From Arcuatula senhousia (Eukaryota > Mollusca > Bivalvia > Mytilida > Mytilidae), in the NCBI GenBank assembly GCA_963971305.1, contig OZ020310.1, positions 61,205,017-61,269,016 of the forward strand: a stretch of DNA of 64,000 nucleotides, read 5' to 3'. A model generated the notes under the pieces. That model saw only the letters and a list, made by a program, of their open reading frames with translations, ran no database searches and had not been told where the DNA came from. Position numbers and translations under genes: made by a program. How positions within the stretch are numbered: position 1 is the stretch's first letter; each line of letters starts with the position of its first letter. This document shows, one piece after another, positions 1 through 53,780 of this stretch.

Positions 1-427
1 CCATGTCCGTTTCCCTCGGTAAACCCTTGTACAAACTACCAACCATTAGAGGAACCACATAGGAGTATCAAATTCACCGCCTCTAACACGTCTTTACTTC
101 TTTGTGACAAGACACGGCCGGCCGGATGGTACCGGTTCACCTCCTATGGGAAGGATGTGGATATGCCAACGTCATGTGTTGATTTTGACAGATGTGGCAC
201 CAGAGCGCCGATATGGCTAGATGGAAAACTGCCTCATTCAGTAAATGACGGGGCTGTGGCTATGAAAGCCTGTATAAACAGAGGACATGGCGCTGATCTG
301 CTTGTAAATCTTGGTTTAGGAACTAAATGCTGTCACGAACATTTAGATATATGCGTTCATAACTGTGGCGCCTACAACGTATACTACCTGGTCAGACCAC
401 CCGCCTGCTCTATGGCGTACTGTGCAG
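1..427 (+). CDS. VWDE-like: Exon 1: D8C (uromodulin-like) domain, 5' partial
   Basis: The frame is open from base 1 (codons start at 1, 4, 7...) to base 427, giving 142 codons plus one base (phase 1). The protein reads VNPCTNY..EPHRS at residues 8-20, GWYRF at 43-47, MPTSCV at 55-60, RCGTRAPIWLDG at 64-75, a CC pair at 110-111, C118, NCGAYNVYYL near 121-130, and ends PPACSMAYCA. This is the cysteine spacing of the D8C domain of uromodulin, OIT3 and VWDE, an extracellular disulfide-rich module. No acceptor is visible, so the exon probably starts before the window. The last 47 bases are the first copy of the 66-bp repeat that fills the following intron. If the donor is not used, the frame stops at TAA 433-435. 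Confidence 0.85.
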
Positions 428-2036
428 GTACGTAAGAGAAGTAAAGATACTACCTGGTCAGACCACCAGCCTGCTCTATGGTGTACTGTACAGGTACGTA
501 AGAGAAGTAAAGATACTACCTGGTCAGACCACCCGCCTGTTCTATGATGTACTGTGCAGGTACGTAAGAGAAGTAAAGATACTACCTGGTCAGACCACCC
601 GCCTGCTCTATGTCATACTGTACAGATACGTAAGAGAAGTAAAGATACTACCTGGTCAGGCCACCCGCCTGTTCTATGATGTACTGTGCAGGTACGTAAG
701 AGAAGTAAAGGTACTACCTGGTCAGGCCACCCGCCTGCTCTATGGCGTACTGTACAGGTACGTAAGAGAAGTAAAGATACTACCTAGTCAGGCCACCTGC
801 CTGCTCTACGGCGTACTGTGCAGGTACGTAAGAGAAGTAAAGATACTACCTGGTCAGGCCACCCGCCTGATCTATGGCGTACTGTACAGGTACGTAAGAG
901 AAGTAAAGGTACTACCTGGTCAGGCCACCCGCCTGCTCTATGGCGTACTGTACAGGTATGTAAGAGAAGTAAAGATACTACCTGGTCAGGCCACCCGCCT
1001 GCTCTATGGCGTACTGTGCAGGTACGTAAGAGAAGTAAAGATACTACCTGGTCAGACCACCCGCCTGCTCTATGGCGTACTGTACAGGTACGTAAGAGAA
1101 GTAAAGGTACTACCTGGTCAGGCCACCCGCCTGCTCTATGGCGTACTGTGCAGGTACGTAAGAGAAGTAAAGATATTACCTGGTCAGAGCAGCCGCCTGC
1201 TCTATGGTGTACTGTGCAGGAACGTAAGAGAAGTAAAGATACTACCTGGTCAGGCCACCCGCCTGCTATATAACGTACTGTACAGGTACGTAAGAGAAGT
1301 AAAGATACTACCTGGTCAGACCACCCGCCTGCTCTATGGCGTACTGTACAGGTACGTAAGAGAAGGAAAGATACTACCTGGTCAGGCCACCCGCCTGCTC
1401 TATGGCGTACTGTACAGGTACTTAAGATAAGTAAAGATACTACCTGGTCAGGCCACCTGCCTGCTCTATGGCGAACTGTGCAGGTACGTAAGAGAAGTAA
1501 AGATACTACCTGGTCAGGCCATCTGCCTGCTGTATGGCGTACTGTGCAGGTACGTAAGATAAGTAAAGATACTATCTGGTCAGGCCATCTGCCTGCTGTA
1601 TGGCGTACTGTGCAGGTACGTAAGATAAGTAAAGATACTATCTGGTCAGGCCACCCGCCTGCTCTATGGCGTACTGTACAGGTACGTAAGAGAAGGAAAG
1701 ATACTACCTGGTCAGGCCACCCGCCTGCTCTATGGCGTACTGTACAGGTACTTAAGATAAGTAAAGATACTACCTGGTCAGGCCACCTGCCTGCTCTATG
1801 GCGAACTGTGCAGGTACGTAAGAGAAGTAAAGATACTACCTGGTCAGGCCATCTGCCTGCTGTATGGCGTACTGTGCAGGTACGTAAGATAAGTAAAGAT
1901 ACTATCTGGTCAGGCCATCTGCCTGCTGTATGGCGTACTGTGCAGGTACGTAAGATAAGTAAAGATACTATCTGGTCAGGCCACCCGCCTGCTCTATGGC
2001 GTACTATGCAGGTACGTAAGAGAAGTAAAGATACTA
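381..2036 (+). repeat. 66-bp satellite array, part I (about 25 units)
   Basis: Tandem units begin in the third base of codon 127 of exon 1 and run without spacer to 2036. The unit is 47 bases of exon end plus 19 bases of intron: ATACTACCTGGTCAG, CCACCCGCCTGCTC, TATGGCGTACTGTGCAG, then GTACGTAAGAGAAGTAAAG. Common variants are cagA/Gcc, ggCg/ggTg, and tgtA/Gcag. A 5-unit (330-bp) higher-order duplication is marked by two GGTACTTAAGATAAG variants 330 bp apart (about 1417 and 1747). The part ends at a TA where the transposon at 2037 inserted. Confidence 0.95.
425..433 (+). other. Authentic 5' splice site of intron 1
   Basis: CAG|GTACGT with the exon ending at 427; it pairs with U1 snRNA at 8 of 9 positions of the CAGGTAAGT consensus. 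A second GT lies 4 nt downstream (GTAAGA). Phase 1 matches the phase of the exon at 56289, and skipping the site leads to a stop at 433-435. The same donor recurs in almost every following repeat unit. Confidence 0.8.
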
Positions 2037-2805
2037 CAGTGAAAACTGTCCAAACCGAACCCTGACTAAACCGAATTTCACATCAAACCGAACAAATTTT
2101 CAAGTCCCAAAGATTTTTTTATTAAATATAAAGTAATTTAACCTGTTAAAACAGAACACTGTCTATTCCGAATACCGAACTAATTTTTATTCCCTATATT
2201 TAATAATTCATGTTATAATACCTTGTCTGTACCGAACTTATCATAGATAATCAAGGATTTACTTTCTGGTTTTGTACTAGCAATTACATGTATGTTTTTA
2301 CAAGAAATTATATAGAGTGATCCAAGCTGTCAAAATGATTAAGATATGGGCATTTATTATAAAAACATGCATTTATATGAATGTTTTGATAACAATAAGT
2401 TTCACAAGCCTGAATTTCTTTAATGGTTTGATTGTCATCAAAACATAGGTTAATAACTGATCCAATTAATGAGAAAATATTTTCATCGTTAAAAACATAG
2501 ATATTGATTATACATATTAAGATCTATGTTAAAAAATAAAAAAAGTGAATCACTAGCTACATTATAAGAATAACTAAGAAGAATTCAATTTTGTTACGAA
2601 AAGAATCTTTTTACTTTAATACATGTATATATATTAATTGAATTGCATTTTCAAACTCAATGATAGCCTTTCATTTAAGTTTCATATCTTTTATTCATCT
2701 ATGGTCCATTTCCGGTTATAACTTAACCCTGACAAAACCGAACACCTGCTGAAACCGAACAAATCCTTAAGTCCCATTGCTGTTCGGTTTGGACAGGTTT
2801 CACTG
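2037..2805. mobile_element. 769-bp TA-flanked inverted-repeat transposon in the array
   Basis: The ends are CAGTGAAAACTGTCCAAACC and the reverse complement of GGTTTGGACAGGTTTCACTG, so the inverted repeats match at 19 of the first 20 bases. It is flanked by TA on both sides (2035-2036 and 2806-2807). Removing the element and one TA restores a normal unit reading gatacTActtggtcag, a variant also present near 6897. Subterminal direct repeats rich in AACCGAAC occur at about 2060-2110 and 2726-2777. The core is AT-rich and has no transposase-like ORF, so it is non-autonomous. TA duplication and CAG ends point to Tc1/mariner or pogo-like mobilisation, which is inference. Confidence 0.85.
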
Positions 2806-5800
2806 TACTTGGTCAGACAACCCGCCTGCTCTATGGCATACTGTGAAGGTACGTAAGAGAAGTAAAGATACTACCTGGTCAGACCACCCGCCTGCTCTAT
2901 GGTGTACTGTACAGGTACGTAAGAGAAGTTAAGATACTACCTGGTCAGGCCACCCTCCTGCTCTATGGCATACTGTGCAGGTACGTAAGAGAAGTAAAGA
3001 TACTACCTGGTCAGACCACCCGCCTGCTCTATGGTGTACTGTGCAGGTACGTAAGAGAAGTAAAGATACTACCTGGTCAGACCACCCGCCTGCTCTATGG
3101 TGTACTGTGCAGGTACGTAAGAGAAGTAAAGATACTACCTGGTCAGGCCACCCGCCTGCTCCATGGCGTACTGTACAGGTACGTAAGAGAAGTAAAGATA
3201 CTACCTGGTCAGACCACCCGCCTGCTCTATGGCGTACTGTATAGGTACGTAAGAGAAGTAAAGATACTACCTGGTCAGGCCACCCGCCTGCTTTATGGTG
3301 TACTGTACAGGTACGTAAGAGAAGTAAAGATACTACCTGGTCAGGCCACCCGCCTGCTTTATGGTGTACTGTACAGGTACGTAAGAGAAGTAAAGATACT
3401 ACCTGGTCAGACCACCCACCTGCTTTATGGCGTACTGTACAGGTACGTAAGGGAAGTAAAGATACTACCTGGTCAGACCACCCGCCTGCTCTATGACGTA
3501 CTGTACAGGTACGTAAGAGAAGTAAAGATACTACCTGGTCAGGCCACCCGCCTGCTCTATGGCGTACTGTGCAGGTACGTAAGAGAACTAAAGATACTAC
3601 CTGGTCAGGCCACCCGCCTGCTCTATGGTGTACTGTACAGGTACGTAAGAGAAGTAAAGATACTGCCTGGTCAGACCACCCGCCTGCTCTATGGCGTACT
3701 GTACAGGTACGTAAGAGAAGTAAAGATACTACCTGGTCAGGCCACCCGCCTGATCTATGGCGTACTGTACAGGTACGTAAGAGAAGTAAAGATACTACCT
3801 GGTCAGACCACCTGCCTGCTCTATGACGTACTGTACAGGTACGTAAGAGAAGTAAAGATACTACCTGGTCAGACCAACCGCCTGCTCTATGGCGTACTGT
3901 ACAGGTACGTAAGAGAAGTAAAGATACTACCTGGTCAGACCACCCGCCTGCTCTATGGCGTACTGTACAGGTACGTAAGAGAAGTAAAGATACTACCTGG
4001 TCAGACCACCCACCTGCTCTATGGCGTACTGTACAGGTACGTAAGAGAAGTAAAGATACTACCTGGTCAGACAACCCGCCTGCTCTAAGACGTACTGTGC
4101 AGGTACGTAAGAGAAGTAAAGATACTACCTGGTCAGACAACCCGCCTGCTCTATGGCGTATTGTGAAGGTACGTAAGAGTAGTAAAGATACTACCTGGTC
4201 AGTCCACCCGCCTGCTCTATGGTGTACTGTACAGGTACGTAAGAGTAGTAAAGATACTACCTGGTCAGGCCACCCGCCTGCTCTATGGTGTACTGTACAG
4301 GTACGTAAGAGAAGTAAAGATACTACCTGGTCAGACAACCCGCCTGATCTATGGCGTACTGTACAGGTACGTAAGAGAAGTAAAGATTCTACCTGGTCAG
4401 GCCACCCGCCTGCTCTTTAGCGTACTGTACAGGTACGTAAGAGAAGTAAAGATACTACCTGGTCAGACCACCCGCCTGATCTATGGCGTACTGTACAGGT
4501 ACGTAAGAGAAGTAAAGATACTACCTGGTCAGGCCACCCTCCTGCTCTATGGCGTACTGTACAGGTACGTAAGAGAAGTAAAGATACTACCTGGTCAGAC
4601 CACCCGCCTGCTCTATGGCATACTGTACAGGTACGTAAGAGAAGTAAAGATACTACCTGGTCAGACCACCCGCCTGCTCTATGGCATACTGTACAGGTAC
4701 GTAAGAGAAGTAAAGATACTATCTGGTCAGGCCACCCGCCTGCTCTATGGCGTACTGTACAGGTACGTAAGAGAAGTAAAGATACTACCTGGTCAGGCCA
4801 CCCGCCTGCTCTATTGCGTATTGTGAAGGTACGTAAGAGCAGTAAATAAAATACTACCTGGTAAGGCCACCCGCCTGATCTATGGCGTACTGTACAGGTA
4901 AGTAAGAGAAGTAAAGATACTACCTGGTCAGGCCACCCGCCTGCTCTATGGCGTACTGTACAGGTACGTAAGAGAAGTAAAGATACTACCTGGTCAGGCC
5001 ACCCGCCTGCTCTATGGCGTACTGTACAGGTATGTAAGAGAAGTAAAGATACTACCTGGTCAGACCACCCGCCTGCTCTATGGCGTACTGTACAGGTACG
5101 TAAGAGAAGTAAAGATACTACCTGGTCAGACCACCCGCCTGCTCTATGGCGTACTGTACAGATACGTAAGAGAAGTAAAGATACTACCTGGTCAGGCCAC
5201 CCGCCTGCTCTATGGCGTACTGTACAGGTACGTAAGAGAAGTAAAGATACTACCTGGTCAGGCCACCCGCCTGCTCTATGGCGTACTGTACAGGTATGTA
5301 AGAGAAGTAAAGATTCTCTCTGGTCAGACCACCCGCCTGCTCTATGGCGTACTGTACAGGTACGTAAGAGAAGTAAAGATACTACCTGGTCAGACCACCC
5401 GCCTGCTCTATGGCGTACTGTACAGGTACGTAAGAGAAGTAAAGATACTATCTGGTCAGGCCACCCGCCTGCTCTATGGCGTATTGTGAAGGTACGTAAG
5501 AGTAGTAAAGATACTACCTGGTCAGACCACCCGCCTGCTCTATGGCGTACTGTACAGGTACGTAAGAGAAGTAAAGATACTACCTGGTCAGGCCACCCGC
5601 CTGCTCTATGGCGTATTGTGAAGGTACGTAAGAGTAGTAAAGATACTACCTGGTCAGGCCACCCGCCTGATCTATGGCGTACTGTACAGGTACGTAAGAG
5701 AAGTAAAGATACTACCTGGTCAGGCCACCCGCCTGCTCTATGGCGTACTGTACAGGTACGTAAGAGAAGTAAAGATACTACCTGGTCAGGCCACCCGCCT

Positions 5801-6540
5801 GCTCTATGGCGTACTGTACAGGTATGCAAGAGAAGTAAATATACTACCTGGTCAGGCCACCCGCCTGATCTATGGCGTACTATGCAGGTACGTAAGAGAA
5901 GTAAATATACTACCTGGTCAGACCACCTGCCTGCTTTATGGCGTACTGTACAGGTACGTAAGAGAAGTAAAGTTACTACCTGGTCAGGCCACCCCCTGCT
6001 CTTTGGTGTACTGTGCAGGTAAGTAAGAGAAGTAAAGATTCTACCTGGTCAGACCACCCGCCTGCTCTATGGCGTACTGTACAGGTACGTAAGAGAAGTA
6101 AAGATACTACCTGGTCAGACCACCCGCCTGCTCTATGGCGTACTGTACAGGTACGTAAGAAAAGTAAAGATACTATCTGGTCAGGCCACCCGCTTGCTCT
6201 ATGGCGTACTGTACAGGTACGTAAGAGAAGTAAAGATACTACCTGGTCAGACCAACCGCCTGCTCTATGGCGTACTGTACAGGTACGTAAGAGAAGTAAA
6301 GATACTACCTGGTCAGGCCACCCGCCTGATCTATGGCGTACTGTACAGGTACGTAAGAGAAGTTAAGATACTACCTGGTCAGGCCACCCGCCTGCTCTAT
6401 AACGTACTGTACAGGTATGTAAGAGAAGTAAAGATACTACCTGGTCAGGCCACCCGCCTGCTCTATGGCGTACTGTACAGGTACGTAAGAGAAGTAAAGA
6501 TACTACCTGGTCAGACCACCCGCCTGCTCTATGGCGTATT

Positions 6541-9457
6541 GTGAAGGTACGTAAGAGTAGTAAAGATACTACCTGGTCAGGCCACCCGCCTGCTCTATGG
6601 CGTATTGTGAAGGTACGTAAGAGAAGTAAAGATACTACCTGGTCAGGCCACCCGCCTGCTCTATGGCGTACTGTACAGGTGCGTAAGAGAAGTAAAGATA
6701 CTACCTGGTCAGACCACCCGCCTGCTCTATGGCGAACTGTGCAGGTACGTAAGAGAAGTAAAGATACTACCTGGTCAGACCACCCGCCTGCTCTATGGCG
6801 TATTGTACAGGTACGTAAGAGTAGTAAAGATACTACCTGGTCAGGCCACCCGCCTGCTCTATGGCGTACTGTACAGGTACGTAAGAGAAGTAAAGATACT
6901 ACTTGGTCAGACCACCCACCTGCTCTATGGTGTACTGTACAGGTACTGGTGTACTGTACAGGTACGTAAGAGAAGTAAAGATACTACCTGGTCAGACCAC
7001 CCGCCTGCTCTATGGTGTACTGTACAGGTATGTAAGAGAAGTAAAGATACTACCTGGTCAGGCCACCCGCCTGCTCTATGGCATACTGTGCAGGTACGTA
7101 AGAGTAGTAAAGATTCTACCTGGTCAGGCCACCCGCCTGCTCTATGGCGTACTGTACAGGTACGTAAGAGAAGTAAAGATACTACCTGGTCAGGCCACCC
7201 GCCTGCTCTATGGCGTACTGTACAGGTACGTAAGAGAAGTAAAGATACTACCTGGTCAGGCCACCCGCCTGCTCTATGGCGTATTGTGAAGGTACGTAAG
7301 AGTAGTAAAGATACTACCTGGTCAGGCCACCCGCCTGATCTATGGCGTACTGTACAGGTACGTAATAGAAGTAAAGATACTACCTGGTCAGGCCACCCGC
7401 CTGCTCTATGGCGTACTGTACAGGTACGTAAGAGAAGTAAAGATACTACCTGGTCAGGCCACCCGCCTGCTCTATGGCGTACTGTACAGGTATGTAAGAG
7501 AAGTAAAGATTCTACCTGGTCAGGCCACCCGCCTGCTCTATGGCGTACTGTACAGGTATGTAAGAGAAGTAAAGATTCTACCTGGTCAGACCACCCGCCT
7601 GCTCTATGGCGTACTGTACAGGTACGTAAGAGAAGTAAAGATTCTACCTGGTCAGACCACCCGCCTGCTCTATGGCGTACTGTACAGGTACGTAAGAGAA
7701 GTAAAGATACTACCTGGTCAGACCACCCGCCTGCTCTATGGCGTACTGTACAGGTACGTAAGAAAAGTAAAGATACTATCTGGTCAGGCCACCCGCCTGC
7801 TCTATGGCGTACTGTACAGGTACGTAAGAGAAGTAAAGATACTACCTGGTCAGACCAACCGCCTGCTCTATGGCGTACTGTACAGGTACGTAAGAGAAGT
7901 AAAGATACTACCTGGTCAGGCCACCCGCCTGATCTATGGCGTACTGTACAGGTACGTAAGAGAAGTTAAGATACTACCTGGTCAGGCCACCCGCCTGCTC
8001 TATAACGTACTGTACAGGTATGTAAGAGAAGTAAAGATACTACCTGGTCAGGCCACCCGCCTGCTCTATGGCGTACTGTACAGGTACGTAAGAGAAGTAA
8101 AGATACTACCTGGTCAGACCACCCGCCTGCTCTATGGCGTATTGTGAAGGTACGTAAGAGTAGTAAAGATACTACCTGGTCAGGCCACCCGCCTGCTCTA
8201 TGGCGTATTGTGAAGGTACGTAAGAGAAGTAAAGATACTACCTGGTCAGGCCACCCGCCTGCTCTATGGCGTACTGTACAGGTGCGTAAGAGAAGTAAAG
8301 ATACTACCTGGTCAGACCACCCGCCTGCTCTACGGCGAACTGTGCAGGTACGTAAGAGAAGTAAAGATACTACCTGGTCAGACCACCCGCCTGCTCTATG
8401 GCGTATTGTACAGGTACGTAAGAGTAGTAAAGATACTACCTGGTCAGGCCACCCGCCTGCTCTATGGCGTACTGTACAGGTACGTAAGAGAAGTAAAGAT
8501 ACTACCTGGTCAGACCACCCACCTGCTCTATGGTGTACTGTACAGGTACGTAAGAGAAGTAAAGATACTACCTTGTCAGACCACCCGCCTGCTCTATGGT
8601 GTACTGTACAGGTATGTAAGAGAAGTAAAGATACTACCTGGTCAGGCCACCCGCCTGCTCTATGGCATACTGTGCAGGTACGTAAGAGTAGTAAAGATTC
8701 TACCTGGTCAGGCCACCCGCCTGCTCTATGGCGTACTGTACAGGTACGTAAGAGAAGTAAAGATACTACCTGGTCAGGCCACCCGCCTGCTCTATGGCGT
8801 ACTGTACAGGTACGTAAGAGAAGTAAAGATACTACCTGGCCAGGCCACCCGCCTGCTCTATGGCGTATTGTGAAGGTACGTAAGAGTAGTAAAGATACTA
8901 CCTGGTCAGGCCACCCGCCTGATCTATGGCGTACTGTACAGGTACGTAAGAGAAGTAAAGATACTACCTGGTCAGGCCACCCGCCTGCTCTATGGCGTAC
9001 TGTACAGGTACGTAAGAGAAGTAAAGATACTACCTGGTCAGGCCACCCGCCTGCTCTATGGCGTACTGTACAGGTATGTAAGAGAAGTAAAGATTCTACC
9101 TGGTCAGGCCACCCGCCTGCTCTATGGCGTACTGTACAGGTATGTAAGAGAAGTAAAGATTCTACCTGGTCAGACCACCCGCCTGCTCTATGGCGTACTG
9201 TACAGGTACGTAAGAGAAGTAAAGGTACTATCTGGTCAGGCCACCCGCCTGCTCTATGGCGTACTGTACAGGTATGTAAGAGAAGTAAAGATTCTACCTG
9301 GTCAGGCCACCCGCCTGCTCTATGGCGTACTGTGCAGGTACGTAAGAAAACTAAAGATACTACCTGGTCAGGCCACCCGCCTGCTCTATGGCATACTGTA
9401 CAGGTACGTAAGAGAAGTAAAGATACTACCTGGTCAGACCACCCGCCTGCTCTATAA
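6541..9457 (+). repeat. Higher-order duplication, about 24 units
   Basis: The block starting at 6541 recurs at 8144 (shift 1603 bp, that is 24 units plus 19). The extra 19 bases are a partial-unit duplication in the first copy only (6928-6965). The order of variants (GTATTGTGAAGG units, AGAGTAG units, CAGGTGCGTAAG unit) is the same in both blocks. Confidence 0.8.
6928..6965 (+). repeat. 19-bp partial-unit tandem duplication
   Basis: TGGTGTACTGTACAGGTAC occurs twice head to tail (6928-6946 and 6947-6965), breaking the 66-bp phase. The equivalent place in the 8.1-9.4 kb block has a single copy, so the change arose in one block only, after the block duplication or by loss in the other. Confidence 0.85.
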
Positions 9458-10859
9458 CGTACTGTACAGGTACGTAAGAGAAGTAAAGATACTACCTGGT
9501 CAGGCCACCCGCCTGATCTATGGCGTACTATGCAGGTACGTAAGAGAAGTAAATATACTACCTGGTCAGACCACCTGCCTGCTTTACGGCGTACTGTGCA
9601 GGTACGTAAGAGAAGTAAAGATACTACCTGGTCATACCACCCGCCTGTTCTATGGTGTACTGTGCAGGAACGTAAGAGAAGTAAAGATACTATCTGGTCA
9701 GGCCACCCGCCTGCTCTATGGCGTATTGTGAAGGTACGTAAGAGAAGTAAAGATACTACCTGGTCAGTCCACCCGCCTGCTATATGGCGTACTGTGAAGG
9801 TACGTAAGAGAAGTAAAGATCCTACCTGGTCAGGCCACCCGCCTGCTCTATGGCATACTGTACAGGTACGTAAGAGAAGCAAAGATATTACCTGGTCAGT
9901 CTACCCGCCTGCTCTATGGCGTACTGTACAGGTATGTAAGAGAAGTAAAGATACTACCTGGTCAGGCCACCCGCCTGCTCTATGGCGTACTCTGCAGGTA
10001 CGTAAGAGAAGTAAAGATACTTCCTGGTCAGACCACCCGCCTGCTCTATGGCGTACTGTGCAGGTACGTAAGAGAAGTAAAGATCCTACCTGGTCAGGCC
10101 ACCCGCCTGCTCTATGGCGTACTGTACAGGTACGTAAGAGAAGTAAAGATACTACCTGGTCAGACAACCCGCCTGCTCTATGGCGTACTGTACAGGTACG
10201 TAAGAGAAGTAAAGATACTACCTGGTCAATCCACCCGCCTGCTCTATGGCGAACTGTGCAGGTACGTAAGAGAAGTAAAGATACTACCTGGTCAGGCCAC
10301 CCGCCTGCTCTATGGCATACTGTACAGGTACGTAAGAGAAGTAAAGATAATACCTGGTCAGGCCACCTGCTTGCTCTATCGCGTACTGTACAGGTACGTA
10401 AGAGAAGTAAAGATACTACCTGGTCAGGCCACCCGCCTGCTCTATGGCGAACTGTGCAGGTACGTAAGAGAAGTAAAGATACTACCTGGTCAGGCCACCC
10501 GCCTGCTCTATGGCGTACTGTACAGATACGTAAGAGAAGTAAAGAAACTACCTGGTCAGGCCATCCGCCTGCTCTATGACGTACTGTACAGGTACGTAAG
10601 AGAAGTAAAGATTTAACCTGGTCAGGCCACCCGCCTGCTCTATAGCGTACTGTACAGGTACGTAAGAGAAGTAAAGAAACTACCTGGTCAGACCACCTGC
10701 CTGCTCTATAACGTACTGTACAGGTACGTAAGAGAAGTAAAGATACTACCTGGTTAGGCCACCCGCCTGCTCTATAACGTACTGTACAGATACGTAAGAG
10801 AAGTAAAGAAACTACCTGGTCAGACCACCCGCCTGCTCTATAACGTACTGTACAGGTAC

Positions 10860-13800
10860 GTAAGAGAAGTAAAGGTACTACCTGGTCAAACCACCCGCCT
10901 GCTCTATGTCGTACTGTGCAGGTACGTAAGAGAAGTAAAGATACTACCCGGTCAAACCACTCGTCTGCTCTATGGCGTACTGTGCAGGTACGTAAGAGAA
11001 GTAAAGATACTACCCGGTCAAACCACCCATCTGCTCTATGGCGTACTGTACAGGTACGTAAGAGAAGTAAAGGTACTACCTGTTCAGGCCACCCGCCTGC
11101 TCTATGGCGTACTGTGCAGGTACATAAGAGAAATAAAGATACTACCTGGTCAGGCCACCCGCCTGCTCTATAACGTACTGTACATGTACGTTAGAGAAGT
11201 AAAGATACTACCTGGTCAGGCCACCCGCCTGCATTATGACGTACTGTACAGGTACGTAAGAGAAGTAAAGGTTCTAACTGGTCAGGCCACCCGCCTGCTC
11301 TATGGCGTACTGTACAGGTACGTAAGAGAAGTAAAGATACTACCTGGTTAGACCACCCGCCTGCTCTATGACGTACTGTGCAGGTACGTAAGAGAAGTAA
11401 AGATACTACCTGGTCAGACCACCCACCTGCTCTATGGCGTACTGTACAGGTACGTAAAAGAAGTAAAGATACTACCTGGTCAGACCAACCGCCTGCTCTA
11501 TGGCGTACTGTACTGGTACGTAAGAGAAGTAAAGATACTACCTGGCCAGGCCACCCACCTGCTCTATGGCGTACTGTACAGATACGTAAGAGAAGTAAAG
11601 ATACTACCTGGTCAGACCTCCCACCTGCTCTATGGCGTACTGTACAGATACGTAAGAGAAGTAAAGATACTACCTGGTCAGGCCATCAGCCTGCTCTATG
11701 GCGAACTGTGCAGGTACGTAAGAGAAGTAAAGATACTACCTGGTCAGGCCACCCGCCTGCTCTATGGCATACTGTACAGGTACGTAAGAGAAGTAAAGAT
11801 ACTACCTGGTCAGGCCACCTGCCTGCTCTATCGCGTACTGTACAGGTACGTAAGAGAAGTAAAGATACTACCTGGTCAGGCCACCCGCCTGCTCTATGGC
11901 GAACTGTGCAGGTACGTAAGAGAAGTAAAGATACTACCTGGTCAGGCCACCCGCCTGCTCTATGGTGTACTGTACAGATACGTAAGAGAAGTAAAGAAAC
12001 TACCTGGTCAGGCCATCCGCCTGCTCTATGACATACTGTACAGGTACGTAAGAGAGGTAAAGATTTAACCTGGTCAGGCCACCCGCCTGCTCAATAGCGT
12101 ACTGTACAGGTACGTAAGAGAAGTAAAGGTACTACCTGGTCAAACCACCCGCCTGCTCTATGGCGTACTGTACAGATACGTAAGAGAAGTAAAGATACTA
12201 CATGGTTAGGCCACCCGCCTGCTCTATAACGTACTGTACAGATACGTAAGAGAAGTAAAGAAACTACCTGGTCAGACCACCCGCCTGCTCTATAACGTAC
12301 TGTACAGGTACATAAGAGAAGTAAAGGTACTACCTGGTCAAACCACCCGCCTGCTCTATGTCGTACTGTGCAGGTACGTAAGAGAAGTAAAGATACTACC
12401 CGGTCAAACCACCCGTCTGCTCTATGGCGTACTGTGCAGGTACGTAAGAGAAGTAAAGATACTACCCGGTCAAACCACCCGTCTGCTCTATGGCGTACTG
12501 TACAGGTACGTAAGAGAAGTAAAGGTACTACCTGTTCAGGCCACCCGCCTGCTCTATGACGTACTGTGCAGGTACGTAAGAGAAGTAAAGATACTACCTG
12601 GTCAGGCCACCCGCCTGCTCTATAACGTACTGTACATGTACGTAAGAGAAGTAAAGATACTACCTGGTCAGGCCACCCGTCTGCTCTATGACGTACTGTA
12701 CAGGTACGTAAGAGAAGTAAAGGTTCTACCTGGTCAGGCCACCTGCCTGCTCTATGGCGTACTGTACAGGTAAGTAAGAGAAGAAAAGATACTACCTGGT
12801 CAGGCCAACCGCCTGCTCTATGGCGTACTGTACAGGTACGTAAGAGAAGTAAAGATACTACCTGGTCAGGTCACCCGCCTTCTGTATGGCGTACTGTACA
12901 GGAACGTAAGAGAGGTAAAGATACTACCTGGTCAGGCTACCCGCCTGCTCTATGGCGTACTGTGCAGGTACGTAAGAGAAGTAAAGATACTAACTGGTCA
13001 GACCACCAGCCTGCTCTATGGCGTACTGTGCAGGTACGTAAAAGAAGTAAAGATACTACCTGGTCAGGCCACCCGTCTGTTCTATGGCGTACTGTACAGG
13101 TACGTAAGAGAAGTAAAGATAATACCTGGTCAGGCCACCCGCCTGCTCTATGCTGTACTGTGAAGGTACGTAAGAGAAGTAAAGATACTACCTGGTCAGG
13201 CCACCCGCCTGCTCTATGGCATACTGTACAGGTATGTAAGAGAAGTAAAGATAGTACCTGGTCAGGCCACCCGCCTGCTCTATCGCGTACTGTACAGGTA
13301 CGTAAGAGAAGTAAAGATACTACCTGGTCACGCCACCCGCCTGCTCTATGGCGTACTGTACAGGTATGTAAGAGAAGTAAAGATACTACCTGGTCAGGCC
13401 ACCCGCCTGCTCTTTGGCGTACTGTGCAGGTACGTAAGAGAAGTAAAGATACTACCTGGTCAGGCCACCCGCCTGCTCTTTGGCGAACTGTGCAGGTACG
13501 TAAGAGAAGTAAAGATACTACATGGTTAGGCCACCGGCCTGCTCTATAACGTACTGTACAGATACGTAAGAGAAGTAAAGAAACTACCTGGTCAGACCAC
13601 CCGCCTGCTCTATAACGTACTGTACAGGTACGTAAGAGAAGTAAAGGTACTACCTGGTCAAACCACCCGCCTGCTCTATGTCGTACTGTGCAGGTACGTA
13701 AGAGAAGTAAAGATACTACCCGGTCAAACCACCCGTCTGCTCTATGGCGTACTGTGCAGGTACGTAAGAGAAGTAAAGATACTACCCGGTCAAACCACCC

Positions 13801-14000
13801 GTCTGCTCTATGGCGTACTGTACAGGTACGTAAGAGAAGTAAAGGTACTACCTGTTCAGGCCACCCGCCTGCTCTATGGCGTACTGTGCAGGTACGTAAG
13901 AGAAGTAAAGATACTACCTGGTCAGGCCACCCGCCTGCTCTATAACGTACTGTACATGTACGTAAGAGAAGTAAAGATACTACCTGGTCAGGCCACCCGC
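10860..14000 (+). repeat. Higher-order blocks marked by CCCGGTCAAACCAC units
   Basis: A run with CTATGTCGTACTGTGCAGG followed by units reading CCCGGTCAAACCAC is seen from about 10873, 12325 and 13645. The spacings are 1452 bp (22 units) and 1320 bp (20 units). The unit order following each run is largely the same. Confidence 0.75.
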
Positions 14001-30320: not shown

Positions 30321-30379
30321 GTGCAGGTACGTAAGAGAAGTAAAGATACTACCTGGTCAGACCACCCGCCTGCTCTATG

Positions 30380-33650: not shown

Positions 33651-34082
33651 ACCTGGTCAGACCACCCACCTGCTCAATGGCGTACTGTGCAGGTACGTAA
33701 AAGAAGTAAAGATACTACCTGGTCAGACCACCCACCTGCTCTATGGCGTACTGTACAGGTACGTAAAAGAAGTAAAGATACTACCTGGTCAGACCACCCA
33801 CCTGCTCTATGGCGTACTGTACAGGTACGTAAAAGAAGTAAAGATACTACCTGGTCAGACCACCCACCTGCTCTATGGCGTACTGTATAGGTACGTAAAA
33901 GAAGTAAAGATACTACCTGGTCAGGCCACCCGCCTGCTCTAAGGTGTACTGTGCAGGTACGTAAGAGAAGTTAAGATACTACCTGGTCAGACCACCCACC
34001 TGCTCTATGGCGTACTGTACAGGTACGTAAAAGAAGTAAAGATACTACCTGGTCAGGCCACCCGCCTGCTCTAAGGTGTACT

Positions 34083-42600: not shown

Positions 42601-45600
42601 AAGAGAAGTAAAGATACTACCTGGTCAGGCCACCCGCCTGCTCTATAACGTACTGTACAGATACGTAAGAGAAGTAAAGATACTACCTGGACAGGCCACC
42701 TGTCTGCTCCATAACGTACTGTACAGGTACGTAAGAGAAGTAAAGATACTTTCTGGTCAGACCACCCGCCTGCTCTATGGTGTACTGTACAGGTACGTAA
42801 GAGAAGTAAAGATACTACCTGGTCAGGCCACCCGCCTGCTCTATGGTGTACTGTACAGGTACGTAAGAGAAGTAAAGATACTACCTGGTCAGACCATCCA
42901 CCTGCTCTATGTCATACTGTACAGATACGTAAGAGAAGTGAAGGTACTACCTGGTAAGGCCACTCGCCTTCTCTATGGTGTACTGTACAGGTACGTAAGA
43001 GAAGTAAAGATACTACCTGGTCAGGCCACCCGCCTGCTCTATGGTGTACTGTACAGATACGTAAGAGAAGTAAAGATACTACCTGATCAGGCCACCCGCC
43101 TGCTCTATAACGTACTGTACAGATACGTAAGAGAAGTAAAGATACTACCTGATCAGGCAACCTGCCTGCTCTATGGCGTACTGTGCAGGTACGTAAAAGA
43201 AGTAAAGATACTACCTGGTCAGGCCATCTGTCTGCTCTATGGCGTACTGTGCAGGTACGTAAGAGAAGTAAAGATACTACCTGGTCAGGCCACCCGCCTG
43301 CTCTATGACGTACTGTGAAGGTACGTAAGAGAAGTAAAGATACTACCTGGTCAAGCCACCCGCCTGCTCTATGACGTACTGTGCAGATACGTAAGAGAAG
43401 TAAAGATACTACCTGGTCAGGCCCCCCGCCTGCTCTATAACGTACTGTGCAGGTACGTAAGAGAAGTAAAGATACTACCTGCTCAGACCACCCGCCTGCT
43501 CTATGGTGTACTGTACAGGTACGTAAGAGAAGTAAAGATACTACCTGGTCAGGCCAGGCGCCTGCTCTATGGCGTTCTGTATAGGTAGGTAAGAGAAGTA
43601 AAGATACTACCTGGTCAGACCACCCGCCTGCTCTATGGCGAACTGTGCAGGTACGTAAGAGAAGTAAAGATACTACCTGGTCAGGCCACCCGCCTGCTCT
43701 ATGGTGTACTGTACAGGTACGTAAGAGAAGTAAAGATACTACCTGGTCAGGCCCCCCGCCTGCTCTATAACGTACTGTGCAGGTACGTAAGAGAAGTAAA
43801 GATACTACCTGGTCAGACCACCTGCCTGCTCTATGGTGTACTGTACAGGTACGTAAGAGAAGTAAAGATACTACCTGGTCAGGCCACCCGCCTGCTCTAT
43901 GACGTACTGTGCAGGTACGTAAGAGAAGTAAAGATTAAACCTGGTCAGGCCACCCGCCTGCTCTATAACGTACTGTGCAGGTACGTAAGAGAAGTAAAGA
44001 TACTACCTGGTCAGGCCACCCGCCTGCTCTATGCCGTACTGTGCAGGTACGTAAGAGAAGTAATGATACTACATGGTCAGGCTACCCGCCTGCTCTATGG
44101 CGTACTGTGCAGATTCGTAAGAGAAGTAAAGATACTACCTGGTCAGGCCACCCGCCTGCTCTATGGTGTACTGTACAGGTACGTAAGAGAAGTAAAGATA
44201 CTACCTGGTCAGGCCCCCCGCCTGCTCTATAACGTACTGTACAGGTACGTAAGAGAAGTAAAGATACTACCTGGTCAGGCCCCCGCCTGCTCTATAACGT
44301 ACTGTGCAGGTGCGTAAGAGAAGTAAAGATACTACCTGGTCAGACCACCCGCCTGCTCTATGGTGTACTGTACAGGTACGTAAGAGAAGTAAAGAAACTA
44401 CCTGGTCAGGCCACCCGCCTGCTCTATGGTGTACTGTACAGGTACGTAAGAGAAGTAAAGATACTACCTGGTCAGGCCACCAGCCTGCTCAATGGCGTAC
44501 TGTACAGGTAGGTAAGAGAAGTAAAGATACTACCTGGTCAGACCAACCGCCTGCTCTATGGCGAACTGTGCAGGTACGTAAGAGAAGTAAAGATACTACC
44601 TGGTCAGGCCACCCGCCTGCTCTATGGTGTACTGTACAGGTACGTAAGAGAAGTAAAGATACTACCTGGTCAGGCCACCCGCCTGCTCTATGGCGTACTG
44701 TACAGGTAGGTAAGAGAAGTAAAGATACTACCTGGTCAGACCACCCGCCTGCTCTATGGCGAACTGTGCAGGTACGTAAGAGAAGTAAAGATACTACCTG
44801 GTCAGGCCACCCGCCTGCTCTATGGTGTACTGTACAGGTACGTAAGAGAAGTAAAGATACTACCTGGTCAGGCCCCCCGCCTGTTCTATAACGTACTGTG
44901 CAGGTACGTAAGAGATGTAAAGATACTACCTGGTCAGGCCACCCGCCTGCTCTATGGTGTACTGTACAGATACGTAAGAGAAGTAAAGATACTACCTGGT
45001 CAGGCCACCTGCCTGCTCTATGTCGTACTGTACAGGTACGTAAGAGAAGTAAAGATACTACCTGGTCAGACCACCAGCCTGCTCTATGGTGTACTGTACA
45101 GGTACGTAAGAGAAGTAAAGATACTACCTGGTCAGACCACCAGCCTCCTCTATGGTGTACTGTACAGGTACGTAAGAGAAGTAAAGATACTACCTGGTCA
45201 GGCCACCCGCCTGCTTTATGGTGTACTGTACAGGTACGTAAGAGAAGTAAAGATACTACCTGGTCAGACCACCAGCCTGCTCTATGGTGTACTGTACAGG
45301 TACGTAAGAGAAGTAAAGATACTACCTGGTCAGGCCAGCCGCCTGCTCTATGGTGTACTGTGCAGGAACGTAAGAGAAGTAAAGATACTACCTGGTCAGA
45401 CCACCAGCCTGCTCTATGGTGTACTGTACATGTACGTAAGAGAAGTAAAGATACTACCTGGTCAGACCACCAGCCTGCTCTATGGTGTACTGTACAGGTA
45501 CGTAAGAGAAGTAAAGATACTACCTGGTCAGGCCACCCGCCTGCTCTATGGTGTACTGTACAGGTACGTAAGAGAAGTAAAGATACTACCTGGTCAGGCC

Positions 45601-48600
45601 ACCCGCCTGCTCTATGACGTACTGTACAGATACGTAAGAGAAGTAAAGATACTATCTGTTCAGACCACCCGCCTGCTCTTTGACGTATTGTGCAGGTATG
45701 TAAGAGAAGTAAAGATACTACCTGGTCAGGCCCCCCGCCTGCTCTATGGTGTACTGTACAGATACGTAAGAGAAGTAAAGATACTATCTGGTCAGACCAC
45801 CAGCCTGCTCTTTGGTGTACTGTACAGGTACGTAAGAGAAGTAATGATACTACCTGGTCAGACCACCCGCCTGCTCTATAACGTACTGTGCAGGTACGTA
45901 AGAGTAGAAAAGATACTAACTGGTCAAGCCACCAGCCTACTCTATGGTGTACTGTACAGATACGTAAGAGAAGTAAAGATACTACCTGGTCAAGCCACCC
46001 GCCTGCTCTATGACGTACTGTACAGATACGTAAGAGAAGTAAAGATACTATCTGGTCAGACCACCAGCCTGCTCTTTGGTGTACTGTACAGGTATGTAAG
46101 AAAAGTAAAGATACTATCTGGTGAGGCCGTCAGCCTGCTCTATAACGTACTGTACAGGTACGTAAGAGAAGTAAAGGTACTACCTGGTCAGACCACCTGT
46201 CTGCTCTATAACGTACTGTACAAGTATGTAAGAAAAATAAAGATACTACCTGGACAGGCCACCCGCCTGCTCTATCGCGTACTGTGTAGGTACGTAAGAA
46301 AAGTAAAGATACTACCTGGTCCGACCACCCCCTGCTCTATAACGTATATACAGGTACGTAAGAGAAGTAAAGATACTACCTAGTCAGACCACCCGCCTGC
46401 TCTATGGTGTACTGTACAGGTACGTAAGAGAGGTAAAGATACTACCTGGTCAGGCCACCCGCATGCTCTATAACGTACTGTACAGATACGTAAGAGAAGT
46501 AAAGATACTACCTGGACAGGCCACCTGTCTGCTCTATAATGTACTGTACAGGTACGTAAGAGAAGTAAAGATACTATCTGGTCAGACCATCCGCCTGCTC
46601 TATGGTGTACTGTTAAGGTACGTAAGAGAAGTAAAGATACTACCTGGTCAGGCCACCCGCCTGCTCTATGGTGTACTGTACAGGTACGTAAGAGAAGTAA
46701 AGATACTACCTGGTAAGACCACCCACCTGCTCTATGTCATACTGTGCAGGTAGGTAAGAGATGTAAAGATACTACCTGGTCAGGCCACCCGCCTGCTCTA
46801 TGGTGTACTGTACAGATACGTAAGAGAAGTAAAGATACTACCTGGTCAGGCCACCCGCCTGCTCCATGTCGTACTGTACAGGTACGTAAGAGAAGTAAAG
46901 ATACTACCTGGTCAGACCACCAGCCTGCTCTATGGTGTACTGTACAGGTACGTAAGAGAAATAAAGATACTACCTGGTCAGACCACCAGCCTCCTCTATG
47001 GTGTACTGTACAGGTACGTAAGAGAAGTAAAGATACTACCTGGTCAGGCCACCCGCCTGCTCTATGGTGTACTGTACAGGTACGTAAGAGAAGTAAAGAT
47101 ACTACCTGGTCAGACCACCAGCCTGCTCTATGGTGTACTGTACAGGTACGTAAGAGAAGTAAAGATACTAACTGGTCAGGCCAGCCGCCTGCTCTATGGT
47201 GTACTGTGCAGGAACGTAAGAGAAGTAAAGATACTATCTGTTCAGACCACCCGCCTGCTCTATGACGTATTGTGCAGGTATGTAAGAGAAGTAAAGATAC
47301 TACCTGGTCAGGCCCCCCGCCTGCTCTATGGTGTACTGTACAGATACGTAAGAGAAGTAAAGATACTATCTGGTCAGACCACCAGCCTGCTCTTTGGTGT
47401 ACTGTACAGGTACGTAAGAGAAGTAAAGATACTACCTGGTCAGACCACCCGCCTGCTCTATGGTGTACTGTGCAGGTACGTAAGAGTAGAAAAGATACTA
47501 CCTGGTCAAGCCACCCGCCTGCTCTATGACGTACTGTACAGATACGTAAGAGAAGTAAAGATACTACCTGGTCAGACCACCCGCCTGCTCTATAACGTAC
47601 TGTGCAGGTACGTAAGAGTAGAAAAGATACTACCTGGTCAGACCACCCGCCTGCTCTATAACGTACTGTGCAGGTACGTAAGAGTAGTAAAGATACTACC
47701 TGGTCAAGCCACCCGCCTGCTCTATGACGTACTGTACAGATACGTAAGAGAAGTAAAGATACTATCTGGTCAGACCACCAGCCTGCTCTTTGGTGTACTG
47801 TACAGGTATGTAAGAAAAGTAAAGATACTATCTGGTGAGGCCGTCAGCCTGCTCTATAACGTACTGTACAGGTACGTAAGAGAAGTAAAGGTACTACCTG
47901 GTCAGACCACCTGTCTGCTCTATAACGTACTGTACAAGTATGTAAGAAAAATAAAGATACTACCTGGACAGGCCACCCGCCTGCTCTATCGCGTACTGTG
48001 TAGGTACGTAAGAAAAGTAAAGATACTACCTGGTCCGACCACCCCCCTGCTCTATAACGTAGTGTACAGGTACGTAAGAGAAGTAAAGATACTACCTAGT
48101 CAGACCACCCGCCTGCTCTATGGTGTACTGTACAGGTGCGTAAGAGAAGTAAAGATACTACCTGGTCAGGCCACCCGCCTGCTCTATAACGTACTGTACA
48201 GATACGTAAGAGAAGTAAAGATACTACCTGGACAGGCCACCTGTCTGCTCTATAACGTACTGTACAGGTACGTAAGAGAAGTAAAGATACTATCTGGTCA
48301 GACCACCCGCCTGCTCTATGGTGTACTGTACAGGTACGTAAGAGAAGTAAAGATACTACCTGGTCAGGCCACCCGCCTGCTCTTTGGTGTACTGTACAGG
48401 TACGTAAGAGAAGTAAAGATACTACCTGGTAAGACCACCCACCTGCTCTATGTCATACTGTACAGATACGTAAGAGAAGTAAAGATACTACCTGGTCAGG
48501 CCACTCGCCTGCTCTATGGTGTACTGTACAGGTACGTAAGAGAAGTAAAGATACTACCTGGTCAGGCCAGCCGCCTGCTCTATGGTGTACTGTACAGATA

Positions 48601-49980
48601 CGTAAGAGAAGTAAAGATACTACCTGGTCAGGCCAGCCGCCTGCTCTATAACGTACTGTACAGATACGTAAGAGAAGTAAAGATACTACCTGATCAGGCC
48701 ACCTGCCTGCTCTATGGCGTACTGTGCAGGTACGTAAGAGAAGTAAAGATACTACCTGGTCAGGCCACCTGCCTGTTCTATGGCGTACTGTGCAGGTACG
48801 TAAGAGAAGTAAAAATACTACCTGGTCAGGCCACCCGCCTGCTCTATGACGTACTGTGAAGGTACGTAAGAGAAGTAAAGATACTAGCTACCTGGTCAAG
48901 CCACCCGCCTGCTCTATGACGTACTGTGCAGATACGTAAGAGAAGTAAAGATACTACCTGGTCAGGCCAGCCGCCTGCTCTATGGTGTACTGTGCAGGAA
49001 CATTAGAGAAGTGAAGATACTTCCTGGTCAGACCACCAGCCTGCTCTATGGTGTACTGTACAGGTACGTAAGAGAAGTAAAGATACTACCTGGTCAGACC
49101 ACCAGCCTGCTCTATGGTGTACTGTACAGGTACGTAAGAGAAGTAAAGATACTACCTGGTCAGGCCACCCGCCTGCTCTATGGTGTACTGTACAGGTACG
49201 TAAGAGAAGTAAAGATACTACCTGGTAAGACCACCCACCTGCTCTATGTCATACTGTGCAGGTACGTAAGAGATGTAAAGATACTACCTGGTCAGGCCAC
49301 CCGCCTGCTCTATGGTGTACTGTACAGATACGTAAGAGAAGTAAAGATACTACCTGGTCAGGCCACCCGCCTGCTCTATGTCGTACTGTACAGGTACGTA
49401 AGAGAAGTAAAGATACTACCTGGTCAGACCACCAGCCTGCTCTATGGTGTACTGTACAGGTACGTAAGAGAAGTAAAGATACTACCTGGTCAGACGACCA
49501 GCCTCCTCTATGGTGTACTGTACAGGTACGTAAGAGAAGTAAAGATACTACCTGGTCAGGCCACCCGCCTGCTCTATGGTGTACTGTACAGGTACGTAAG
49601 AGAAGTAAAGATACTACCTGGTCAGACCACCAGCCTGCTCTATGGTGTACTGTACAGGTACGTAAGAGAAGTAAAGATACTACCTGGTCAGGCCAGCCGC
49701 CTGCTCTATGGTGTACTGTGCAGGAACGTAAGAGAAGTAAAGATACTATCTGTTCAGACCACCCGCCTGCTCTATGACGTATTGTGCAGGTATGTAAGAG
49801 AAGTAAAGATACTATCTGGTCAGGCCCCCCGCCTGCTCTATGGTGTACTGTACAGATACGTAAGAGAAGTAAAGATACTATCTGGTCAGACCACCAGCCT
49901 GCTCTTTGGTGTGCTGTACAGGTACGTAAGAGAAGTAAAGATACTACCTGGTCAGACCACCCGCCTGCTCTATAACGTAC
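39680..49980 (+). repeat. Blocks marked by CAGGCCCCCCGCC units
   Basis: A marker of a GCAGGTATGTAAG unit followed by one with CAGGCCCCCCGCC recurs at about 39686, 41467, 45690, 47272 and 49784. Spacings from the second on are 4223, 1582 and 2512 bp, within a few bases of 64, 24 and 38 units. Companion markers TCTGGTGAGGCCGTCAGC and CTGTACAAGTATGTAAG recur near 42290, 46120 and 47830. A 6-nt insertion (TAGCTACC context) lies near 48886. Confidence 0.75.
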
Positions 49981-50047
49981 TGTGCAGGTACGTAAGAGTA
50001 GAAAAGATACTATCTGGTCAGGCCACCTGCCTGCTCTATGGTGTACT

Positions 50048-51500
50048 ATACAGGTACGTAAGAGAAGTAAAGATACTACCTGGTCAGGCCACCCGCCTGC
50101 TCTATGGCGTACTGTGCAGGTACGTAAAAGTAGTAAAGATACTATCTGGTCAGGCCACCCGCCTGCTCTATGGCGTACTGTGCAGGTACGTAAGAGTAGT
50201 AAAGATACTACCCGGTCAGACCACCAGCCTGCTCTATGGTGTACTGTACAGGTACGTAAGAGAAGTAAAGATACTACCTGGTCAGACCACCCGCCTGCTT
50301 TATAACGTACTGCACAGGTACGTAAGAGTAGTAAAGATACTATCTGGTCAGGCCACCCGCCTGCTCTATGCCGTACTGTGAAGGTAAGTAAGAGAAGTAA
50401 AGATACTACCTGGTCAAGCCACCCGCCTGCTCTATGACGTACTGTACAGATACGTAAGAGAAGTAAAGATACTACCTGGTCAGACCACCTGCCTGCTCTA
50501 TGGCGAACTGTGCAGGTACGTAAGAGAAGTAAAGATACTACCTGGTCAGGCCACCCGCCTGCTCTATAACGTACTGTGCAGGTACGTAAGAGTAGTAAAG
50601 ATACTTCCTGGTCAGGCCACCCGCCTGCTCTATAACGTACTGTGCAGGTACGTAAGAGTAGTAAAGATACTTCCTGGTCAGGCCACCCGCCTGCTCTATA
50701 ACGTACTGTGCAGGTACGTAAGAGAAGTAAAGATACTACCTGGTCAGGCCACCCGCCTGCTCTATAACGTACTGTGCAGGTACGTAAGAGTAGTAAAGAT
50801 ACTACCTGGTCAGGCCACCCGCCTGCTCTATGGCGTACTGTGCAGGTACGTAAAAGTAGTAAAGATACTATCTGGTCAGGCCACCCGCCTGCTCTATGGC
50901 GTACTGTGCAGGTACGTAAGAGTAGTAAAGATACTACCCGGTCAGACCACCAGCCTGCTCTATGGTGTACTGTACAGGTACGTAAGAGAAGTAAAGATAC
51001 TACCTGGTCAGACCACCCGCCTGCTCTATAACGTACTGCACAGGTACGTAAGAGTAGTAAAGATACTATCTGGTCAGGCCACCCGCCTGCTCTATGCCGT
51101 ACTGTGAAGGTAAGTAAGAGAAGTAAAGATACTACCTGGTCAAGCCACCCGCCTGCTCTATGACGTACTGTACAGATACGTAAGAGAAGTAAAGATACTA
51201 CCTGGTCAGACCACCTGCCTGCTCTATGGCGAACTGTGCAGGTACGTAAGAGAAGTAAAGATACTACCTGGTCAGGCCACCCGCCTGCTGTATATCGTAC
51301 TGTGCAGGTACGTAAGAGTAGTAAAGATACTATCTGGTCAGGCCACCCGCCTGCTCTATGCCGTACTGTGAAGGTAAGTAAGAGAAGTAAAGATACTACC
51401 TGGTCAAGCCACCCGCCTGCTCTATGACGTACTGTACTGATACGTAAGAGAAGTAAATATACTATCTGGTCAGATCACCAGCCTGCTCTTTGGTGTACTG
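50048..51500 (+). repeat. Higher-order duplication of 11 units (726 bp)
   Basis: GGTACGTAAAAGTAGTAAAG occurs at about 50119 and 50845, and TATGCCGTACTGTGAAGG at about 50367 and 51093, both 726 bp apart. The second marker returns a third time 264 bp (4 units) later, near 51357. Near 52165 one unit carries a 12-nt insertion duplicating part of AAGTAAATAT. Confidence 0.8.
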
Positions 51501-53780
51501 TACAGGTACGTAAGAGAAGTAAAGATACTACCTGGTCAGGCCACCCGCCTGCTCTATAACGTACTGTGCAGGTACGTAAGAGTAGTAAAGATACTTCCTG
51601 GTCAGGCCACCCGCCTGCTCTATGACGTACTGTACAGATACGTAAGAGAAGTAAAGATACTATCTGGTCAGACCACCAGCCTGCTCTTTGGTGTACTGTG
51701 CAGGTACCTTAGAGAAGTAAAGATACTACCTGGTCAGACCACCCGCCTGCTCTATAACGTACTGTGCAGGTACGTAAGAGAAGTAAAGATACTATCTGGT
51801 CAGACCACCCGCCTGCTCTATGGTGTACTGTACAGGTACGTAAGATAAGTAAAGATACTACCTGGTCAGGCCACCCGCCTGCTCTATGACATACTGTGCA
51901 GGTATGTAAGAGAAGTAAAGATACTACCTGGTCAGGCCACCCGCCTGCTCTATGGCGTACTGTGCAGGTACGTAAGAGAAGTAAAGATACTATCTGGTCA
52001 GACCATCCGCCTGCTCTATGGCGTACTGTGAAGGTACGTAAGATAAGTAAAGATACTACCTGGTCAGGCCACCCGCCTGCTCTATGACGTACTGTGCAGG
52101 TATGTAAGAGAAGTAAAGATACTAGCTGGTCAGGCCACCCGCCTGCTCTATGACGTACTGTGCAGGTATGTAAGAGAAGTAAATATAAGTAAAGATACTA
52201 CCTGGTCAGGCCACTCGCCTGCTCTATAACGTACTGTGCAGGTAGGTAAGAGTAGTAAAGATACTACCTGGTCAGGCCACCTGCCTGCTCTATGGCGTAC
52301 TGTGCAGGTACGTAAGAGAAGTAAAGATACTACCTTGTCAGGCCACCTGCATGCTCTATGGTGTACTGTGCAGGTACGTAAGAGAAGTAAAGATACTACC
52401 TGGTCAGGCCACCCGCCTGCTCTATGGTGTACTGTACAGGTACGTAAGAGAAGTAAAGATACTACCTGGTCAGACCAGCCGCCTGCTCTATGGTGTACTG
52501 TGCAGGTACGTAAGAGAAGTAAAGATACTACCTGGTCAGGCCACCCGCCTGCTCTATGTCATACTGTACAGATACGTAAGAGAAGTAAAGATACTACCTG
52601 GTCAGACCACCCGCCTGCTCTATGGTGTACTGTACAGGTACGTAAGAGAAGTAAAGATACTACCCGGTCAGACCACCCACCTGCTCTATGGTGTACTGTA
52701 CAGGTACGTAAGATAAGTAAAGATACTACCTGGTTAGACCACCCGCCTGCTCTATGGTGTACTGTACAGGTACGTAAGAGAAGTAAAGATACTATCTGGT
52801 CAGGCCACCCGCCTTTTCTATGGCGTACTGTGCAGGTACGTAAGAGAAGTAAAGATACTACCTGGTCAGACCACCCGCCTGCTCTATGGTGTACTGTACA
52901 GGTAAGTAAGAGAAGTAAAGATACTACCTGGTCAGGCCACCAGCCTGCTCTATGGCGTACTGTACAGGTACGTAAGAGAAGTAAAGATACTACCTGGTCA
53001 GACCACCCGCCTGTTCTATGGCGTACTGTACAGGTAAGTAAGAGAAGTAAAGATACTACCTGGTCAGGCCACCAGCCTGCTCTATGGCGTACTGTACAGG
53101 TAAGTAAATGAAGTAAAGATACTACCTGGTCAGACCACCCGCCTGTTCTATGGCGTACTGTACAGGTACGTAAGAGAAGTAAAGATACTACCTGGTCAGA
53201 CCACCCGCCTGATCTATGGCGTACTGTACAGGTACTTAAGAGAAGTAAAGATACTACCTGGTCAGACCACCCGCCTGCTCTATGGTGTACTGTGCAGGTA
53301 CGTAAGAGAAGTAAAGGTACTACCTGGTCAGACCACCCGCCTGCTCTATGGTGTACTGTACAGGTAAGTAAGAGAAGTAAAGATACTACCTGGTCAGGCC
53401 ACCAGCCTGTTCTATGGCGTACTGTACAGGTACGTAAGAGAAGTAAAGATACAACCTGGTCAGACCACCCGCCTGCTCTATGGCATACTGTGCAGGTACG
53501 TAAGAGAAGTAAAGATATTACCTGGTCAGGCCACCCGCCTGCTCTATGGCGTACTGTGAAGGTACGTAAGAAAAGTAAAGATACTACCTGGTCAGACCAC
53601 CCGCCTGATCTATGGCGTACTGTACATGTAAGTAAGAGAAGTAAAGATACGACCTGGTCAGACCACCCGCCTGCTCTATGGCGTACTGTACAGGTACGTA
53701 AGAGAAGTGAAGATACTACCTGGTCAGACCACCCGCCTGTTCTATGGCGTACTGTGCAGGTACGTAAGAGAAGTAAAGAT

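Follow-up and report, generated by a model that had tools for sequence, protein, structure and literature searches.

A 66-bp array copied from an exon end: an extreme case of exon stuttering in a bivalve intron

How does the end of a coding exon, complete with its splice donor, come to be repeated some eight hundred times in the intron that follows it? The locus that raises this question lies in a window of 64,000 nucleotides of Arcuatula senhousia DNA (C8:61205017-61269016), some 0.55 Mb short of the end of a 61.8-Mb contig in an assembly of 1.036 Gb and 1803 contigs. Positions below are window coordinates unless otherwise stated.

The D8C exon and its host gene

Bases 1-427 (forward strand) are open throughout in frame 1 and encode a D8C domain (Pfam PF23283 D8C_UMOD, 2.8e-13, 50.3 bits, cut-off 27) that also matches GP2 and uromodulin chains in the PDB, the best at 2.4e-15. 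An acceptor-like TTTGCAG is located 8 bases 5' of the window start. The exon ends in phase 1 as ...TACTGTGCAG|GTACGTAAG, with the donor CAG|GTACGTAAG, and its tail, YYLVRPPACSMAYC, is part of the conserved domain, being aligned to GP2. In two C9 paralogues, with identities of 55 and 54%, the D8C exon ends alike, in ...TGTGCAG|GT, and no array lies over either boundary. Pfam, PDB homology and the two paralogues thus agree that the first 427 bases are exonic, as the first-pass annotation required. An unrelated AT-rich repeat occurs in one of the paralogues, some 1.5 kb past its D8C boundary.

On its domain matches (D8C, a sub-threshold Ig_VWDE match and EGF-like matches) the host gene is a predicted VWDE-like gene. 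Six more exons are predicted on the forward strand between 56289 and 62542, with splice signals present and a continuous frame. These are a 51-bp exon of phase 1-1 at 56289-56339; an Ig-like exon at 58360-58607, which has paralogue homology and an Ig_VWDE match below the Pfam cut-off (20 vs 28.1 bits); exons at 58850-58930 and 60062-60209; an exon kept in the C9 paralogues at 60894-61108; and an exon at 62466-62542, which we take to be the start of the VWD region. Given the predicted next exon at 56289-56339, the intron after the D8C exon would measure about 55.9 kb. Homology to the two C9 paralogues extends the gene to +94.9 kb, the last, EGF-like stretch being matched in one of the two, and a further exon (e12) at +98.4 kb is predicted from an open frame and splice signals only.

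Structure of the array

The repeated unit consists of the last 47 bases of the D8C exon and the first 19 of its intron, repeated head to tail between 381 and 53780; unit alignment confirms this composition, which had been proposed from the letters alone. The seed unit (381-446, forward strand) comprises exon bases 381-427 and intron bases 428-446. It is followed on the same strand by a first intronic stretch of array (447-2036), by the main array of about 772 units (2806-53778), and by the exit (53779-53780), an AT that unit alignment and junction comparison show to be common to the exon edge and the intron (2-bp microhomology). Tandem Repeats Finder accordingly reports two 66-bp arrays, 381-2037 and 2806-53780. 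Wrap-around alignment of 381-53780 divides it into 799 segments, 797 of them near-complete units if the right part of one insertion-split unit is included; the remaining two are the 7-base left part of the split unit and the 2-base exit. No deletion is found in 785 of the 799 segments, and insertions occur in six. The interruption at 2037-2805, recognized by flank comparison, is an element of 769 bp that ends in inverted repeats (about 24 bp) and is flanked by a TA target duplication. Its flanks rejoin as one 66-bp unit in register, so the element was inserted after the array existed. The earlier figure of about 800 units between 381 and 53780 therefore holds as a count; as a description of one unbroken array it does not.

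Later units are on average 94.5% identical to the exon unit, from which each has 1 to 10 differences; none is identical to it. The exon unit itself differs from the majority unit at two columns, 16 and 44. Mean divergence of the units from the majority unit is 5.0%, and pairs of units differ at 5.5 of 66 bases. Neighbouring units are slightly closer to one another (5.02 differences at lag 1 vs 5.51 over all pairs), and 36 runs of 5-19 consecutive units reappear at a constant spacing, each unit showing no more than one difference from its counterpart, the pattern expected from block duplication by unequal exchange. With 797 units and block duplications, the homogenised tandem monomers form a long array that qualifies as satellite DNA. 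The GC content of the array is 0.47-0.50. As to individual units, an internal tandem duplication of 19 bp spans the donor of the one at 6896-6980, so that two donors fall within 85 bp. Unit column 36 (the C of a CpG) is T in 217/797 units and column 35 (G) is A in 149/797; these variants may reflect methylation-driven decay or array lineages.

Origin of the array

The junctions read AAAG-AT-ACTACC between units, ACGT-AT-ACTACC at the exon edge and AAAG-AT-TAAAG at the exit. The array is thus entered and left in the identical unit phase, with the 2-bp AT in common, as predicted for repeated local tandem duplication of one segment. Is the unit found anywhere else? Its core pattern is matched 327 times in forward and not once in reverse orientation across the 1.04-Gb assembly; the window alone accounts for 327 and 0, and a backwards-read control of the pattern has no match in the genome. 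Chance is excluded by these counts, and because 327/327 exact core matches are inside the window we conclude that the array was born at this locus. The search used an IUPAC pattern with no mismatches, which diverged copies elsewhere could escape; a broader DNA search gave 203 matches and, among the matches listed, all were inside the window. The direction, from exon to satellite, follows from the conserved domain tail and from the array-free boundary in the two C9 paralogues. On this comparison the exon-intron boundary is old and the array the newcomer. The first-pass annotation had proposed a boundary-seeded array amplified in place beside an exon with an intact frame, and had named the same satellite at unrelated loci as a finding that would count against this; phase, the locus-exclusive core and the paralogue boundary all bear the proposal out.

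Copying of an exon part and its splice site through the adjacent intron has been described on chicken dot chromosomes under the name exon stuttering (Hron et al. 2026, PMC12954441). We are highly confident that local exon stuttering is the best explanation of the 66-bp array. As to how it might have proceeded, we infer a tandem duplication, joined at the 2-bp AT microhomology, of a 66-bp segment that crosses the 3' border of the D8C exon. Replication slippage or unequal exchange, acting also on blocks of as many as about 19 units, would then have expanded the segment into an intronic array of 53 kb. The upstream copy would have remained the working exon end and donor, and the other units would evolve without clear constraint. 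Such an array could be tolerated because the first donor would still be able to pair with the next exon; selection would be expected against mis-splicing, not in favour of the array. The birthplace of a satellite can here be read at one locus, from its seed, its phase, the microhomology of its junctions and its growth by block duplication.

Other arrays along the same gene

Counting arrays with a period of at least 20 and a length of at least 150 bp, 77,021 bases are covered in the 114 kb from the D8C exon onward, compared with 7,560 of 129,503 bases (5.8%) in 13 other stretches (two immediately upstream, four at C9 paralogues, one on C15 and six placed arbitrarily). What is new at this locus is that two further large arrays are found at downstream exon ends of the same gene.

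The first of these, an 82-bp x 69 array (73740-79433, that is L038 9740 to L039 5433), starts 105 bases past exon e10, which ends at 73634, and its unit carries CAGGTAAGA. Compared in register with the e10 end and donor, the unit scores 31 (shuffle maximum 30, 500 shuffles), and the real array scores 38 against the e10 end (shuffle maximum 32, 300 shuffles). An isolated copy of the e10 end just past the array (about L039 5593-5628) scores 40, with a shuffle maximum of 29 (300 shuffles). In raw score the e10/82-bp pair, at 30, is the top of 76 exon-end/array pairs (which exclude D8C with its own array); the next scores 26. A z value is a poor guide by itself, since the start of e7 and the 37-bp unit, which are not neighbours, give z 6.0 (raw score 24) vs 6.1 for e10 and the 82-bp unit; the case for the 82-bp array is made on raw scores, the real array and the isolated copy, and not on z. 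The 82-bp array is probably an older instance of exon stuttering, seeded by the e10 end.

The second array has a 46-bp unit in about 249 copies (98506-110069, in L046/L047), the first of which begins at the donor of a predicted exon ending at 98490. Against the donor region from -20 to +41 the array scores 56 (maximum 30 in 500 shuffles), and against -20 to +15 it scores 25 (shuffle maximum 24); the exon part alone scores 17 and is not significant (shuffle maximum 27). This array was probably seeded by the donor and the 5' part of the intron. Its unit has an acceptor-like TATTTAG before the donor, at the 84th to 95th percentile of background AGs. Arrays of 37 bp and 56 bp in other introns of the gene (L038 5888-9314 and 4405-5198) matched no known exon end. 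Exact core patterns of the 82-bp, 46-bp and 37-bp arrays are confined to the locus (25/25, 56/56 and 9/9 matches, respectively). Further along, L048 1374-3362 contains frames with CCHC zinc-knuckle-like residues, common to the surroundings of a C9 paralogue, that look like mobile-element remnants.

Are 5' splice sites, then, recurrent seeds of satellites? With arrays of 66 bp x 797, 82 bp x 69 and 46 bp x ~249 at exon ends, donors might be preferred seeds, through RNA-DNA hybrids or pausing at the donor, so that arrays would recur at exon ends. In the 114-kb stretch three of the eight arrays of at least 400 bp adjoin exon ends, and the chance of at least 3/8 is 0.0004 to 0.005 (12 exon ends, 60-150 bp window); without the original 66-bp array the chance of at least 2/7 is 0.007 to 0.04. 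At none of 10 exon starts does a comparable raw score go with an adjoining array. These arrays were, however, counted post hoc in a single gene stretch, and five of the eight are away from known exon ends. The 82-bp array is only probably exon-derived and the exon part of the 46-bp array is not significant alone; counting the 46-bp array alone, the chance of at least 1/7 is 0.13 to 0.30. When exon ends were compared with the next 2 kb, e10 and e12 both scored 32, their shuffle maxima being 30 and 26, and e5, which has no array of this kind, reached 34 (z 3.4), the same value as its best shuffle; such a score at e5 shows the exon-end scan to be noisy. Finally, an array over the match end (period at least 15, at least 2.5 copies) was found at 0/27 other D8C-matching loci, a survey in which most loci match the first half of the domain only and so have a different exon end. 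At one of these loci (L028) a short 18-bp array lies about 80 bp downstream. We consider recurrent seeding by donors possible but unlikely. If true, it would link the formation of arrays to events at donors, either transcription or splicing, and would take exon stuttering outside the vertebrates and outside GC-rich chromosomes. The locus sharpens the question of why exon ends, and perhaps donors especially, should be seeds of arrays.

Exon starts were also considered as array seeds, by pairing 10 starts (e11 left out) with 7 array units. Among the 70 pairs raw scores were at most 27 and no high scorer had an array beside its exon start, so this candidate was rejected.

Constraint on the units and splicing

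The donor GT is intact in 716/797 units and AG|GT in 700/797 (699/796 after the first). The statement that nearly all units keep the splice site amounts to these counts, and the donors show no clear extra conservation. The two columns of the GT are 91.5% (G) and 98.4% conserved, and columns outside the donor region average 94.7%; the donor region from -3 to +6, at 96.3%, is slightly higher than the 94.7% elsewhere. Exon-derived columns (94.1%) are less conserved than intron-derived ones (97.2%). Selection keeping the donor in the units is not supported, the G of GT being below the mean column. Stops are present in the exon-derived part of 45 units. Among possible changes, 28/32 synonymous, 74/94 non-synonymous and 8/9 stop changes do occur, with 838 instances over the 32 synonymous, 1510 over the 94 non-synonymous and 46 over the 9 stop changes. 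The synonymous excess looks like weak constraint; we tentatively attribute it to transition bias and to a small number of widespread variants. Read most simply, the copies are passengers, in which the splice site has been retained through homogenisation of the array.

What does the gene do with so many donors? An in-frame TAA stands three codons beyond the exon end, within the intron part of the first unit, and a transcript spliced directly from any later donor would therefore encode a truncated protein. From the reading frame we infer that use of the first donor is the likely state. The roughly 700 decoy donors that are tolerated offer a natural test of donor choice by the splicing machinery. 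Alternatively, CAG|GTACGT in each unit might serve as a joint acceptor and donor, the giant intron being removed stepwise by recursive splicing with the same junction recreated at each step. Splicing to any of the 699 of 796 later units with AG|GT would indeed regenerate both junction and frame, and such a route is possible in principle. The acceptor, however, appears weak. Scored with a profile of 10 acceptors from the same stretch of the gene, the unit CAG reaches -0.6, at the 73rd percentile of 1219 background AGs; leave-one-out scores of the real acceptors range from -0.6 to 15.2. We regard recursive splicing as very unlikely.

Could the copy number have been inflated by the assembly? The exact length of the array is that given by the assembly. 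The units, however, differ from the majority and from one another to the extent given above, and contain indels and an inserted element; misassembly could change the length, not produce this structure, and as an explanation of the array it is highly improbable. That an older dispersed satellite landed beside the exon or was captured by it is scarcely credible, given a unit that encodes a conserved domain end, an entry and exit in phase, and a core without exact copies in the rest of the assembly.

Comparison with known systems

The present array, for which local exon stuttering is the reading we prefer, has points in common with three described systems. In Drosophila Y genes satellite DNA occurs in gigantic introns (PMC6508621), as a satellite array does in the present gene; the opening of that paper's abstract mentions no exon-boundary origin. 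The AGGT model of intron gain (Ma et al. 2016, PMC4974935) invokes tandem duplication across an intron-exon boundary, and, as presented there, shares with our case a first step that duplicates across a splice boundary and so brings ready splice signals. In that model one duplication yields a new intron, whereas here the copies lie inside an old intron and have reached satellite scale.

The closest parallel is exon stuttering itself. In the parts of the chicken report that bear on our case (PMC12954441) the phenomenon covers 236 introns of 115 genes, with 190/236 introns on GC-rich dot chromosomes; exon parts of 20-187 bp (median 36) are present in 1-44 copies as imperfect tandems spanning 112-23,555 bp, and intron length varies widely between individuals. 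The same report gives it as not found in other vertebrates except gerbil, and our search through titles, abstract openings and passages of open-licence PMC papers found no invertebrate case. The array was first taken to have no described counterpart, a view that this publication overturns. As in chicken, tandem copies of an exon edge with its splice site are strictly local and the exon itself is unchanged; the source spans an exon border, and the exon part of 47 bp is within the chicken range. On the strict criterion drawn from that account the 66-bp array belongs to exon stuttering; association with GC-rich dot chromosomes, which lies outside this criterion, is not seen here. The array is thus an extreme case of exon stuttering: real and striking, not undescribed. 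It differs from the reported chicken cases in scale and regularity (797 regular copies over 53.4 kb), in GC context (a 61.8-Mb contig of a genome whose GC content is 32-36% in the 13 stretches sampled, against GC-rich dot chromosomes) and in phylum. These differences suggest that exon stuttering is also possible on a large chromosome of an AT-rich genome, where it can reach a far larger size.
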